A stretch of 64,000 bases of DNA from Petasospora fabianii (taxonomy: Eukaryota > Ascomycota > Saccharomycetes > Phaffomycetales > Wickerhamomycetaceae), in NCBI GenBank assembly GCA_022641835.1, contig CP048716.1, positions 744,001 through 808,000 on the forward strand. Reading direction: 5' to 3'. The translations under genes were made by a program, and so were the position numbers. The notes beneath the pieces were generated by a model. That model searched no databases and was not told the DNA's origin. It saw nothing but the letters and a program-made list of their open reading frames with translations. Shown here in pieces: positions 7,802 through 40,351 of this stretch. Each line of letters opens with the position of its first letter. Within the stretch, counting starts at the first letter, position 1.

Positions 7802-8947
7802 ATGGACGTTGACGTTCCTGGAATTCTTACCACGCTTCGCACGGAGGCCAATCCACAGCTCGAGTCGCTATTTCTCGCTTTCGAAGACTTGTATGACCGC
7901 AAGCTGTGGCATCAACTCACCAAGACTCTGGAGGTGTTCTACAAGACACCAAGCTCCACAGGTGTGCGCATGAGACTCTACAAGAACTTCATCACACTGT
8001 TTAAGTATAAGATCAACCAGTTGAAGCATGTTGAGTTCCTCCTGGCCTCGTTGGTGGAGGTTAAGGAGGCGTCTGAGTGTAAGGGATATCTCTTGGAGTT
8101 GAAGGAGGAGCTGAAGAAGCAGGACAAGATCGATAAGGAGCAGGCATTGTTGTTCCTCGACATTGAGATTGCAAGATGTAAGCTTCACCTTAAGCAAGAG
8201 GTGGAAGCTAGAGATGACTTGGACAAGATTGACAAGAGCTTTGCACAGATTGATGCTGTTGATCTCAAGTTGAACCAGTCCTACTTCTCCACAAATTCCG
8301 AATACTACAAAGTGAAATCCGACTATAACAACTTCTACTATCAGAGTCTCCTATATTTGTCCACAGTTCAACTCGATGATCTTCAATTAATTGATCAACA
8401 GAGGCTAGCTTATGACCTCAGTATCAGTGCTCTCCTCGCTGACAAGATTTACAACTTTGGAGAGTTGCTTACCCATCCTATCTTGCAGACACTTAAAGGT
8501 GGTGAATACCAGTGGATAATTGATCTCTTAAACTCGCTGAACTCTGGTGACATTGATGCATTTTCGAAGAACTTGCATCATTTGGAGAAGAACACATTGC
8601 TCAAGACTTCTGAGTCATTCCTTAAGCAAAAGATTTGTCTTATGACATTGGTTGAACTCGTCTTTGCCAAGTCTATCAGAGTCATTTCATTCAAGGATGT
8701 GTCTGTGGCTACACTTCTCAGCATTGGTGAAGTTGAGCACTTGGTGATGAGAGCATTGAGTCTGGGATTGTTGAAGGGCTCCATTGATCAAATCTCGCAA
8801 ACTATCAGCATCAATTGGGTGCAGCCAAGAATCATTAACCAGACACAGATTGCCAACATGAAGCAGAAACTTGTCGCATGGGATGCTAATGTGTCTAAGT
8901 TGGGTACTTTTATGGAGCAGAATGGTAAGGAGATTTGGATCGAGTAA
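7802..8947 (+). CDS. RPN9: 26S proteasome lid subunit Rpn9
   Basis: 381 residues, against 393 in S. cerevisiae. Matching blocks include ILTTLRTEANP near the N terminus, LWHQL, RLRLY-like RMRLYKNF, IEIARCKL, NSYFSTNS-type sequence, LLYLSTVQL, RLAYDLSISALLADKIYNFG and, at the C terminus, VEHLVMRALSLGLLKGSIDQ and INWVQPRII of the PCI domain. Rpn9 is a PCI subunit of the 19S regulatory lid and helps lid assembly and Rpn10 retention. CTG at 7904-7906 encodes a leucine conserved in S. cerevisiae (KLW), which is useful evidence for the standard nuclear code. Confidence 0.96.
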   Translation: MDVDVPGILTTLRTEANPQLESLFLAFEDLYDRKLWHQLTKTLEVFYKTPSSTGVRMRLYKNFITLFKYKINQLKHVEFLLASLVEVKEASECKGYLLELKEELKKQDKIDKEQALLFLDIEIARCKLHLKQEVEARDDLDKIDKSFAQIDAVDLKLNQSYFSTNSEYYKVKSDYNNFYYQSLLYLSTVQLDDLQLIDQQRLAYDLSISALLADKIYNFGELLTHPILQTLKGGEYQWIIDLLNSLNSGDIDAFSKNLHHLEKNTLLKTSESFLKQKICLMTLVELVFAKSIRVISFKDVSVATLLSIGEVEHLVMRALSLGLLKGSIDQISQTISINWVQPRIINQTQIANMKQKLVAWDANVSKLGTFMEQNGKEIWIE

Positions 8948-21387: not shown

Positions 21388-24300
21388 ATGGTACGTTTTT
21401 TCCACAAGTTTCCCCGAGGGGTGTAACCTATTGATAAGGAGGAAGCTGACATTTACACTTAATGTTGGCTTTTGGCTCGGTGTTTCTTACACTTATCATC
21501 AAGTTTTCTTTCAATTAGTAGTATACTAACACATTTGTCAACAGGCTGGTGCAATTGAAAACGCCCGTAAGGAGATTAAGCGTATCTCGCTCGAGGACCA
21601 TTCTGAGTCCGAATATGGCCAGATCTACTCTGTCTCCGGTCCAGTCGTGATTGCTGAGAATATGATTGGTTGTGCCATGTACGAATTGGTTAAAGTTGGT
21701 CATGACAATTTGGTTGGTGAAGTTATCAGAATTGAAGGTGATAAGGCTACTATCCAAGTTTATGAAGAGACTGCTGGTGTTACAGTTGGTGACCCAGTCT
21801 TGAGAACGGGTAAACCATTATCCGTTGAACTTGGTCCAGGTTTGATGGAGACCATTTATGATGGTATTCAAAGACCACTTAAGGCCATTAAGGAAATGTC
21901 TCAATCCATTTATATCCCAAGAGGTATTGATGCCCCAGCTTTGGATAGAAGTGTTAAGTATGATTTCAAACCAGCTTCTCTTAAAGTTGGTGATCACATT
22001 GCAGGTGGTGACATCTTTGGTTCCATCTTTGAAAACTCGCTTCTTAACGATCATAAGATCCTCTTGCCACCAAGAGCTAGAGGTACAATTACATCTATCG
22101 CACAAGCTGGTTCTTACACCATTGATGAACCATTGATCGAAGTTGAGTTTGATGGTATCAAACATAGTTACTCCATGTTCCACACATGGCCAGTTCGTGT
22201 TCCAAGACCAGTCGCTGAAAAACTCTCTGCCGATTACCCACTTCTTACCGGTCAAAGAGTCTTGGATGCCTTGTTCCCATGTGTCCAGGGTGGTACAACA
22301 TGTATCCCAGGTGCCTTTGGTTGTGGTAAGACTGTCATCTCGCAATCTCTTTCCAAGTATTCCAACTCTGATGCTATCATCTACGTCGGATGCTTCCGCA
22401 AGGGTACCGATGTTATGATGGCTAATGGTCAAGATAAAGTCATTGAACAAGTTGAGGTTGGTGATCAAGTTATGGGTTCAGATGGTTTGCCAAGAGAGGT
22501 TGTTGGCCTTCCAAGAGGTAACTCCACCATGTACGCCGTTTCTCAATCAATTGAATCTCCATCACTCGATAAGATTGAATTTGTTGTCTCTGAAGACCAC
22601 TTGCTTGTTTTGAAGACTAAGCAGAATGTCACTATCTCCAGAAACGATGATTGCTTCCAGGTTGTGCATTATGAGATGGAGGATGGCGTTGTTAGAGAAA
22701 GAACAGAGTCTATCGACATCAAGACTAATGGTGGTGAGACTCAGGCTAAGGCTCTTGCTGATGCTTACGCTAAGGGTATCGACATTAACGCTGTCTTTGA
22801 CTGGACCGTCACCGCTAAGGACTTCTTTGAAGGTTCTTATGTAAACAGCACCGGTTCAAAGAGAGAAATCGCTGAACGTGTTAAAGATGCTTCTACTCAG
22901 ATGATTCAGCCAGTTCTTTTGGAGTCTGGTAACTTTGCCTCAAAGCTCAACAATGTCTCTATCAAGGGATCAGCTTCTGACATGGCATACCTTCTTGGTG
23001 CCTGGGTCGGTAATGGTCACATTGATACTTCATCTTACTCATTGGCATGTGACAACACCGACTTTGCTAAGAAGATCACTGAATGTGCTGCTAAGCTTGG
23101 TCTTGGTGCCACTCATCACGTCTTCCACGAGCGTCATGCTCCAGCTTCACCAATGAGTGTGGCCTCCGAAGTGTCCTCAGACTTTGAAATGGATGACTGC
23201 TCTATGTTGAGTGATGATGACTCCTCCGCTACAGAGTCCGTTGAAGTTTCTGGCAAGTCTACTTACAGATCACATTCCTCTGCTCTCGACATGTCACTTC
23301 TCAAGGGTGATATGACCGTTACCATCCATGGTGCCGATGTCACTCAGCTTTGTGAGACTTTTGGTGTCAGAAACAATGTTGATGGCTCTTATGAGAAGTC
23401 TGTTCCACTTTCTTTGGCTACTGATGACATTGAGGTCAGAGAGCACTTCATTGCCGGTTTGATCGACTCTGATGGTTCTGTCAAGCATGTCACTAATGAG
23501 AATGTCATTCTCGAGGATGAATTGGCATCTGGCAATATCTCTTGTGCTACACACGCTGTTGTCAACACCATCTACGATGGCGTTGCCCAGGGTTTGGTCA
23601 AGGTTGCTCGCTCCCTTGGTATTGCTGCTTCTATCAACACCAAGGATGCTACTGGTGTTAACCAGATCTACTTGGGTGGTGAGGCTTTGCTTCCTGTTCT
23701 CTCCAAGTGTTCCACTGAGGAGAAGAGAGTTGAGTTTGACTCTGAAAGCTTCACCAGAAAGGCTGTTCCAATGAAATTCACTCTCGATGAACTTCCAAAC
23801 GAGGACTACTACGGTATCACCTTGGCCAAGGAGACTGACCACATGTTCATGTTGTCCAACATGGTTTTGGTGCACAACTGTGGTGAGCGTGGTAACGAAA
23901 TGGCTGAAGTCTTGATGGAGTTCCCAGAGTTGTTTACCGAAATTTCTGGTCGTAAGGAGCCTATTATGAAGAGAACGACATTGGTTGCCAACACCTCCAA
24001 CATGCCAGTCGCTGCCAGAGAGGCTTCCATTTACACTGGTATCACACTTGCTGAGTACTTCCGTGATCAAGGTAAGAACGTTTCCATGATTGCTGATTCT
24101 TCTTCAAGATGGGCCGAGGCCTTGAGAGAAATCTCTGGTCGTCTTGGTGAGATGCCTGCTGATCAAGGTTTCCCAGCTTACTTGGGTGCCAAGTTGGCCT
24201 CTTTCTACGAGAGAGCTGGTAAGGCTGTTGCTCTTGGTTCTCCAGACCGTATTGGTTCTGTCTCCATCGTTGCTGCTGTTTCTCCAGCTGGTGGTGATTT

Positions 24301-24883
24301 CTCCGATCCAGTTACAACTTCCACCTTGGGTATTACACAGGTGTTCTGGGGTTTGGATAAGAAGCTTGCCCAGAGAAAGCATTTCCCATCCATCAACACA
24401 TCCGTTTCTTACTCCAAGTACACCAATGTTTTGAACAAGTACTACGATGGAAACTACCCAGAGTTCCCAGTGCTTAGAGACAGAATCAAGGAGATCTTGT
24501 CCAAGGCTGAAGAGTTGGAGCAAGTTGTCCAGCTTGTCGGTAAGTCTGCCTTGTCTGATTCTGATAAGATTACCCTTGACGTTTCCGCTTTGATCAAGGA
24601 GGACTTCTTGCAACAGAATGGTTATTCGACATATGATGCCTTCTGCCCAATTTGGAAGACTTTCGACATGATGAGAGCCTTTGTCGGATACCACGATGAG
24701 GCACAAAAGGCTGTTGCTAACGGTGCTAACTGGAACAAGCTTGCTGAGCAGACTTCTGACGTTAAGCACTCTGTTTCTTCTTCCAAGTTCTTCGAGCCTT
24801 CGAGAGGTGAGGAGGAAATCAAGGGAGAGTTTGAAAACCTCATCACTACAATCTCTGAGAGATTTGCCGAGGCTGCTGAGTAA
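21388..24883 (+). CDS. VMA1: V-ATPase catalytic subunit A precursor with intein (Vma1)
   Basis: Two exons (21388-21390, the ATG alone, and 21545-24883) encode 1113 residues. Removing the 496-residue intein leaves 617, the same as mature S. cerevisiae Vma1. The host protein is almost colinear with yeast Vma1: MAGAIENARKEIKRISLEDH at the start, the Walker A loop GAFGCGKT, and CGERGNEMAEVLMEFPEL immediately after the intein. Vma1 hydrolyses ATP in the V1 sector to drive proton pumping into the vacuole. The intein sits after mature Gly283, the same point as in S. cerevisiae. Because the insertion lies in the nucleotide-binding core, protein splicing must work for an active pump. Confidence 0.98.
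21391..21544 (+). other. Intron directly after the VMA1 start codon (154 nt)
   Basis: Donor GTACGT at 21391, TACTAAC at about 21524-21530 and acceptor CAACAG at 21544. Splicing joins the bare ATG to GCTGGTGCAATTGAAAAC, giving MAGAIEN as in S. cerevisiae Vma1. Confidence 0.93.
22391..23878 (+). mobile_element. VMA1 intein with degenerate LAGLIDADG homing endonuclease
   Basis: In-frame insertion of 496 residues, against 454 for PI-SceI. Splicing residues look intact: Cys1 (CFRKGTDVMMANG), block B SEDH with His70, C-terminal block VLVHN (His495-Asn496) and a +1 Cys from the host. The Asn/Thr of PI-SceI block B is Ser/Asp here. The endonuclease has two LAGLIDADG motifs. The second, AGLIDSDG, keeps its Asp at residue 361. 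The first reads LLGAWVGNG, with Asn208 at the position of PI-SceI Asp218. Between the motifs is an extra acidic Ser-rich stretch (about residues 250-300). Both Asp residues are needed for cleavage in PI-SceI, so homing activity is probably lost while protein splicing is retained. Confidence 0.95.
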
Positions 24884-27046: not shown

Positions 27047-27943
27047 TTAGTAGTTGGTCAAAATGTCCTCCTCAAGTAATGGATACTTTGGGACCCAACC
27101 CAAGCTCTTCTTTGTGATGTCAGCACTTGTTTTACCATTTGCAGAGATGACAAAGGCTAAGAATCCAAAGTATTCAGCATAATGCTCAGGTGGGATAGAT
27201 TTAACCTCCAAACCATGCTTCTTTCCAATGGCCTCTGCAATCTTCTTGGTTGAAATAAGCTCAGACATTCCATGTAGAGCTGAGTCTGCTTCACCCTTCT
27301 CAACGGCAAGTCTGTAGAGAACAGCAGCGTCTCTTCTGTTAATCGCTGGCCAGACATTTGTGCCTTCACTTGGATAAGCAACGAAACCTTTCTCGTTGGC
27401 ACATTTGATCCAATGTGGGACGAAACCTTTATCACCGATATCATGAACAGTAGGAGACAATCTAACACTCATAGACTTAATACCTCTATTCTTCAATCCG
27501 AGAACAAATGCTTCATTCTCAGTTCTTTGACGAACCCAACCTTGTCCCTGGACTTCTCTGAAGTTTTCATCAATGAAGGTATCAGTAGGAACAAGACAAA
27601 AGGCAAGCAGACCATGAGTATAGACCAATGGTTTATCAGACCCTTCGAGGGCATCAGCAAGAGCCTCGACAGCCTCACGATCAATCTTGACAGAAGTATC
27701 CATATCGGCAAAGTTATTAATGAATCCCAAGTGGATAACACCATCACTTTCCTTAGCAGCACTCTTGAGAACATCAAGGCTAGTCAAGTCACCAATGACG
27801 GCTTCACCACCATAAGACTTGATCTTTTCAGCTGATTCTTGAGATCTGGCAAGACCAATAACTTGGTGGCCATTGGAGATGAGCTCCTCGACGACAGCGG
27901 AACCGATGAAACCTGAGGCTCCAGTGACAAAGTATTTACCCAT
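27047..27943 (-). CDS. NAD(P)-binding SDR-like reductase, YLL056C family, copy 1
   Basis: 298 residues, the same length as S. cerevisiae YLL056C. A Rossmann glycine motif TGASGFIG is at residues 7-14, followed by GLARSQES and a GDLTSLD acidic loop. Conserved blocks include GLKNRGIKSMSVRLSPTVHD, FVPHWIKCA and a C-terminal SLGWVPKYPLLEEDI, typical of extended/atypical SDRs of the epimerase/dehydratase class. The usual catalytic YxxxK is not apparent; RQRTENEAF occupies that region. YLL056C is induced by drugs and oxidants, so a detoxifying reductase role is plausible, but the substrate is unknown. A paralogue is at 39455-40351. Confidence 0.85.
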   Translation of the reverse strand: MGKYFVTGASGFIGSAVVEELISNGHQVIGLARSQESAEKIKSYGGEAVIGDLTSLDVLKSAAKESDGVIHLGFINNFADMDTSVKIDREAVEALADALEGSDKPLVYTHGLLAFCLVPTDTFIDENFREVQGQGWVRQRTENEAFVLGLKNRGIKSMSVRLSPTVHDIGDKGFVPHWIKCANEKGFVAYPSEGTNVWPAINRRDAAVLYRLAVEKGEADSALHGMSELISTKKIAEAIGKKHGLEVKSIPPEHYAEYFGFLAFVISANGKTSADITKKSLGWVPKYPLLEEDILTNY

Positions 27944-39454: not shown

Positions 39455-40351
39455 TCAATAGTAGTTCTCAATATCCTGCTCCAAAGTTGGGCCAACAGGT
39501 TCCCAACCTAGAGTAGATCTAGTGATATCGGTCTTGACTGGAGCATTAAGAGTGATGAATGCCTCCAAGAAGGATAAGTATTTACCAATCTCCTCAACAG
39601 GGACTGATTTAGCCTCGAGACCAAATTTCTTTGCCAATATCTCAGCAATTTGCTTAACAGAGATCCATTCAGCACAGGCATGATAAGAACACCCAGATTC
39701 ACCTTTCTCCATAGCTAATCTGTACAGATTGGCAGCATCATCTTTGTTCACAGCAGTCCATAAGTTTTCACCATCGCCAGGATAAGCAAAGAACCCATTA
39801 TCGTGACCACATTTGATCATGAATGGTACAAATTGATGATCATTTTCACCATGAACAGAGGGAGACAATCTTACACTCATACTTCTAATACCTCTGTCTT
39901 TCAAGTCCAAAACCCAATTCTCAATTTGGATTCTTCTACCAAAGACACCACCAATTGTATCCTCTCTGTATGTCTCATCCTTTGCCTCAACGCCTCTAGG
40001 AATGTCAAGTCCCAAGGAGCCATTGGTATAGATGAGAGGTTTTCCCGTACCTTCATAGACGTCTGCAATTGCCTTCATGGCTTCATGGTCAATATCAAGA
40101 CTCTTGGATGGATCTGAAAAGTTGATGACGAAACCAGCATGGATGGTTCCATCACATTGAGAGGCACCAGTTTTGAGGGACTCGAGGTCGGTAAGATCAC
40201 CTCTAATCACAGAGGCACCAGCAGCAGTGAGCTTAGCAGCAGATTCATCTGAACGGGCAAGTGCAAGGACTTTATGATTGTGGGAAAGGAGATTAGAGAC
40301 AATGGCTGTTCCAACAAAGCCTGATCCACCTGTGATAAAGTATCTTGCCAT
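39455..40351 (-). CDS. NAD(P)-binding SDR-like reductase, YLL056C family, copy 2
   Basis: 298 residues, equal in length to the copy at 27047-27943 and clearly related along its whole length: TGGSGFVG, ALARSDESAAKL, GDLTDLESLK, RGIRSMSVRLSPSVHG and TLGWEPVGPTLEQDI. By eye roughly half of the residues match. As in copy 1, the canonical YxxxK is not visible. Conserved SMSVRLSP and the length point to the YLL056C group. The gene faces RBK1 across 321 bases and converges on the SVOP-like transporter with 62 bases between stops. Confidence 0.85.
   Translation of the reverse strand: MARYFITGGSGFVGTAIVSNLLSHNHKVLALARSDESAAKLTAAGASVIRGDLTDLESLKTGASQCDGTIHAGFVINFSDPSKSLDIDHEAMKAIADVYEGTGKPLIYTNGSLGLDIPRGVEAKDETYREDTIGGVFGRRIQIENWVLDLKDRGIRSMSVRLSPSVHGENDHQFVPFMIKCGHDNGFFAYPGDGENLWTAVNKDDAANLYRLAMEKGESGCSYHACAEWISVKQIAEILAKKFGLEAKSVPVEEIGKYLSFLEAFITLNAPVKTDITRSTLGWEPVGPTLEQDIENYY

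Follow-up and report, generated by a model that had tools for sequence, protein, structure and literature searches.

A full-length VMA1 intein with a degenerate, probably inactive homing endonuclease in a yeast genome

A full-length VMA1 intein of 496 amino acids with a degenerate LAGLIDADG homing endonuclease lies at positions 22391–23878 of the window, a stretch of 64,000 nucleotides whose genes, named by eye, look like yeast nuclear DNA. It is very probably a splicing intein of the VDE family whose homing endonuclease decayed after fixation, which would place it late in the known homing cycle. Fixation is read here from one genome and carries no population-level judgement. The initial annotation had proposed a splicing-competent, post-homing intein that is probably unable to cut both DNA strands. 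The sequence analysis supports that proposal and adds further apparent losses: an alanine at the PI-SceI Asp229 position, gaps in the DNA-recognition region and an acidic nuclease domain. All features described below are on the plus strand unless stated otherwise.

VMA1 gene model, insertion site and splicing residues

The inferred VMA1 gene model opens with an exon that consists of the start codon only (21388–21390), an ATG followed by GTACGT. Directly behind it is a putative intron (21391–21544), recognized from its sequence by the GTACGT 5′ end, a TACTAAC at 21524 and a CAG 3′ end. Exon 2 opens with AGAIENARKEIKR, as yeast Vma1 does. Across 21388–21661, a scan for open reading frames that begin with ATG starts VMA1 at 21662 and drops its first 40 residues because of the apparent intron after the start codon.

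The N-extein (21545–22390) has 282 codons beyond the methionine and matches residues 1–282 of yeast V-ATPase subunit A (3j9t_A, E = 1.4e-166). The C-extein (23879–24883) has 334 codons and a stop, begins with Cys+1, and matches the same chain (E = 2.9e-206). The open frame runs from 21545 to 24883 and passes through exteins and intein without interruption. The intein is inserted between the Gly and Cys of IYVG/CGERGNEMA, where the N-extein ends in IIYVG and the C-extein starts with CGERGNEMAEV. PI-SceI occupies the identical insertion site, VMA1-a. With the intein removed in silico, the restored empty site codes for the peptide IYVGCGERGNEMA, the same as in S. cerevisiae, and differs from a provisional PI-SceI site sequence at 9 of 39 bases, each a synonymous change.

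Translation of 22391–23878 gives 496 residues and no stops, from Cys1 through His495-Asn496 to the first Cys of the C-extein, and the remaining five frames hold 9 to 58 stops each. A phmmer search of PDB sequences aligned the intein with PI-SceI (1dfa_A) at E = 5.1e-55 in two stretches, 1–243 and 336–496. Pfam matches are Hom_end_hint (E = 2e-60) and Hom_end (E = 4.3e-28). The PDB search returned nine sequences, of which six were chains of PI-SceI or Vma1 and three were PRP8 inteins. PI-SceI was the one yeast VMA1 intein found that could be aligned, and inteins of other yeasts were compared through a printed table. A search of viral_contigs with the intein gave no match.

The splicing residues had been annotated as intact, and this stands for the block A nucleophile Cys1 (TGC, 22391–22393, aligned to PI-SceI Cys1), the block B histidine His70 (22598–22600, PI-SceI His79), His495-Asn496 of block G (23873–23878) and Cys+1. 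The description needs one refinement in block B, which reads S-E-D-H here versus N-A-T-H in PI-SceI, so that of the four residues the histidine alone is conserved. Judged from its sequence, the element is a VDE intein at the VMA1-a site by its insertion point, its splicing residues, and its homology to PI-SceI across the splicing and nuclease domains. It shares with PI-SceI (SceVMA) the host gene, insertion site, domain order, Cys1, block B His, His-Asn, Cys+1, and empty-site peptide. The residues and the open frame indicate that the intein most likely still splices out of Vma1. Vma1 would be made as a precursor, from which the intein would cut itself out and ligate the exteins.

Catalytic positions, DNA-recognition region and charge

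The first LAGLIDADG motif (block C, MAYLLGAWVGN, residues 198–208, 22982–23014) aligns with LAYLLGLWIGD of PI-SceI. Within the gap-free block LLGLWIGDG / LLGAWVGNG, Asn208 (AAT, 23012–23014) stands opposite PI-SceI Asp218, and AAT is separated from GAT by a single transition. The second motif (block E, HFIAGLIDSDG, residues 352–362, 23444–23476) keeps its aspartate, Asp361 (23471–23473), opposite PI-SceI Asp326. Both positions are aligned alike by phmmer and by each of three MAFFT modes, which confirms the initial assignment of an asparagine to the first motif and an aspartate to the second. PMC1508164 states that Asp-218 and Asp-326 coordinate metal and are both critical. Where an active LAGLIDADG nuclease has both catalytic aspartates, the pair found here is Asn208 and Asp361.

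Four more PI-SceI residues, Asp229, Thr341, Lys301 and Lys403, were compared, which we take to have catalytic roles. Three are kept, as Thr393, Lys336 (23396–23398) and Lys445, and one of the four is lost, with Ala219 (23045–23047) at the Asp229 position. The full set presumed for an active enzyme is therefore incomplete at Ala219. MAFFT and phmmer place Asn208, Ala219, Lys336, Asp361, Thr393 and Lys445 identically.

The DNA-recognition region of PI-SceI was taken as residues 53–181 (129 residues), and the stretch that aligns with it covers intein residues 53–174 (22547–22912), with limits of our choosing. By MAFFT, 24 of the 129 PI-SceI residues have no partner and 17 intein residues are extra; by phmmer, about 20 of the 129, counted by eye, are unpartnered. 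PI-SceI Arg90, Arg91 and Arg94 are presumed to contact DNA. Arg91 falls in a gap by both methods, and Arg90 falls in a gap by MAFFT or opposite Thr by phmmer. Arg94 is opposite Thr81 by MAFFT or opposite Arg by phmmer, and its loss cannot be claimed because the two methods disagree on its partner.

Lys/Arg residues number 42 in the intein and Asp/Glu residues 76, for a net charge of −34; the corresponding numbers in PI-SceI are 62 and 60, for a net charge of +2. The shift is seen in the recognition region (−8 versus +6 in PI-SceI) and in the nuclease domain (−22 versus +1). It is partly due to an acidic, serine-rich insert in the nuclease domain at residues about 250–305 (23138–23305, approximate boundaries), which lies mostly opposite gaps in PI-SceI and holds 11 Asp/Glu versus 3 Lys/Arg in 56 residues.

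Together, these features distinguish the intein from PI-SceI: the Asp218 and Asp229 positions hold Asn and Ala, block B differs apart from its histidine, the recognition region has gaps, an acidic insert is present, and the net charge is different. Cutting is predicted to be lost because the first catalytic centre is without its metal-binding aspartate (Asn208) and a second residue (Ala219). Poor DNA binding is predicted from the missing stretches of the recognition region and the large shift toward negative charge. The freed intein would thus probably be unable to cut an empty site and would probably bind it poorly. Its length and open frame would persist because the cell needs Vma1 and precise loss of the element seldom occurs. 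Constraint would now act on splicing and translation, and the intein would be a vertically inherited passenger, retained because splicing must work.

Conservation is uneven along the intein. Counts were made at sites identical in PI-SceI and in a provisional sequence of the S. cerevisiae HO endonuclease, which presumably keeps both aspartates and Asp229. By this measure, the splicing parts retain 22 of 30 sites (13/17 and 9/13), the recognition region 11 of 38 and the second half of the nuclease domain 29 of 43. The first nuclease half keeps 15 of 40, a count that includes PI-SceI residues 254–300, which two alignments place differently. Fisher tests on these counts, made with the provisional HO sequence, with an alignment uncertain in places and with no active VDE of similar distance as a control, gave p = 0.008 for the first versus the second nuclease half, p = 0.004 for the first nuclease half versus the splicing parts, and p = 0.0005 for the splicing parts versus the recognition region. 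Identity to PI-SceI alone follows a similar trend from N to C terminus (32/52, 35/105, 32/100, 49/100 and 22/44 aligned residues). The comparison comprises one close homolog, PI-SceI, and the provisional HO sequence, so it does not separate decay from ordinary species divergence. The second nuclease half resembles PI-SceI as closely as the C-terminal splicing part does, and this argues against full decay of that half. As a counterpoint to decay, the fair preservation of this half, including both lysines and Asp361, may mean that selection has not entirely lapsed or that the loss is recent.

Related inteins and alternative readings

Substitutions at these positions have been described before. 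PMC1508164 devotes a section to Asp-218/Asp-326 substitutions in VMA inteins. As given there, the active VMA nucleases of S. cerevisiae, S. cariocanus and Z. bailii keep both aspartates; among the inactive ones it covers, only those of two Torulaspora species do. That the proximal (first) aspartate is missing from the D. hansenii VMA intein was noted in 2006, and the inactive VMA nucleases compared there have low dS/dN (PMC1508164). Table 1 of PMC5056185 lists 14 Candida VMA inteins, of which two, from C. homilentoma and C. orthopsilosis, have Asp at both sites. The block C Asp is absent from 10 of the 14, and three of these 10 pair a block C Asn with a block E Asp, as here: CmeVMA (C. metapsilosis), CmaVMA (C. 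maltosa) and CfaVMA/DhaVMA (C. famata/D. hansenii). By that printed table, these are 454, 451 and 395 residues long, respectively, versus 496 here. The Asn/Asp combination is thus ordinary, part of a common and previously described pattern. The novelty that the initial annotation had implied is not supported.

A comparable case is the archaeal PhoVMA of Pyrococcus horikoshii. As described in PMC8966425, its nuclease also lacks active-site residues, there in both LAGLIDADG helices, its surface charge is changed, and its DNA binding is weaker than that of a relative. Its second LAGLIDADG helix is shortened, the nuclease architecture is said to be retained, and archaeal VMA inteins commonly sit at another site, VMA-b (PMC8966425). 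HO, the nearest VDE relative in the phylogenies of PMC7282813, is not an intein and does not splice. In literature searches on PI-SceI Asp218/Asp326, D218/D229 mutants or LAGLIDADG Asp-to-Asn changes, no PI-SceI mutant study was found among the titles.

The preserved second half raises other readings of the domain. The protein might still bind its site and nick one strand through the second centre, where Asp361, Thr393, Lys336 and Lys445 are all kept in the better conserved half; according to the review PMC3943268, point mutations can turn LAGLIDADG active sites into nickases. The missing stretches of the recognition region and the strongly acidic domain weigh against binding. LAGLIDADG nickases have generally been made by changing the lysine and not the metal-binding Asp, and an Asp-to-Asn change generally blocks both strands. 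A literature search on LAGLIDADG Asp-to-Asn changes and nicking found nothing that settles the point, and nicking is considered highly improbable. The initial annotation's alternative of a nickase or regulator gained no support and is unlikely, because the sequence features suggest that DNA binding has been lost too. An enzyme that still makes double-strand cuts, with another acidic residue at the metal site or with Asn208 tolerated, has the least to recommend it and is given almost no weight. Two aspartates follow Asn208, Asp212 by 4 residues and Asp221 by 13, and the structural prediction leaves room for a rearrangement: an AlphaFold2 model of the intein alone, made from a single sequence, has a mean pLDDT of 32.9 and a pTM of 0.22, too poor to judge the metal site. 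Its helices 195–207 and 347–355 overlap both LAGLIDADG motifs and were not counted as evidence. Against retained cutting, no acidic residue occurs at positions 200–211 or within three of Asn208; Asp212, the first acidic residue toward the C terminus, corresponds to an Asp found in PI-SceI alongside Asp218; and the Asp229 position is lost too.

The nuclease-derived domain could instead be kept for a different role, in support of splicing, in folding of the Vma1 precursor, or in regulation through the acidic, serine-rich insert. The domain is of full length, its second half is kept and the insert is new, and a nuclease domain has been suggested to contribute to splicing in an archaeal VMA intein (PMC8966425). 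Set against this, full length alone is expected, because a partial deletion must leave splicing intact, and selection on the insert or on the remaining sites would take relatives to show. Such a role is judged improbable. Little probability is likewise given to the specific proposal that the domain is no longer a nuclease and has been selected for another job, with the second half and the insert now acting in splicing, folding or Vma1 control. Decay of the nuclease after fixation in a splicing intein is the preferred reading. It fits the homing-cycle model and alters nothing in it.

Codon usage and genetic code

Scored against the VMA1 exteins, the intein has a codon index of 0.657, above 26 of the 28 other open reading frames in the window, and its nuclease part has an index of 0.646, above 25 of the 28. 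The exteins, being themselves the reference, score 0.744 and 0.798. The leucine codons of the intein include no TTA, CTA or CTG. This host-like usage fits long residence and translational selection in a well-expressed gene. Such selection would act with or without a working nuclease. Apparent catalytic loss, recognition-region gaps and the charge shift are seen side by side in an intein whose codon usage stays tuned to the host.

The reading of CTG was judged from one gene, the RPN9 homolog at 7802–8947. By eye, its seven CTG codons align with five Leu, one Lys, one Phe and no Ser of S. cerevisiae Rpn9, and CTG is probably read as leucine in this yeast. A CUG-serine origin was set aside because none of the seven aligns with Ser and five align with Leu. 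VMA1 has no CTG codon, so its translation is unaffected by how CTG is read. The hosts of CmeVMA, CmaVMA and CfaVMA belong to the CUG-serine group, as stated in PMC5056185, whereas the yeast here appears to read CTG as leucine and therefore probably lies outside the group of those three Candida inteins. With the present intein, the VMA1 inteins that pair an Asn in block C with an Asp in block E gain one more member, which apparently comes from outside the CUG-serine yeasts.

Elsewhere in the window, two open reading frames of 298 amino acids on the minus strand (27047–27943 and 39455–40351) have similar N-termini and look NAD-epimerase-like by eye. About 12 kb separates the two, which may be paralogs.
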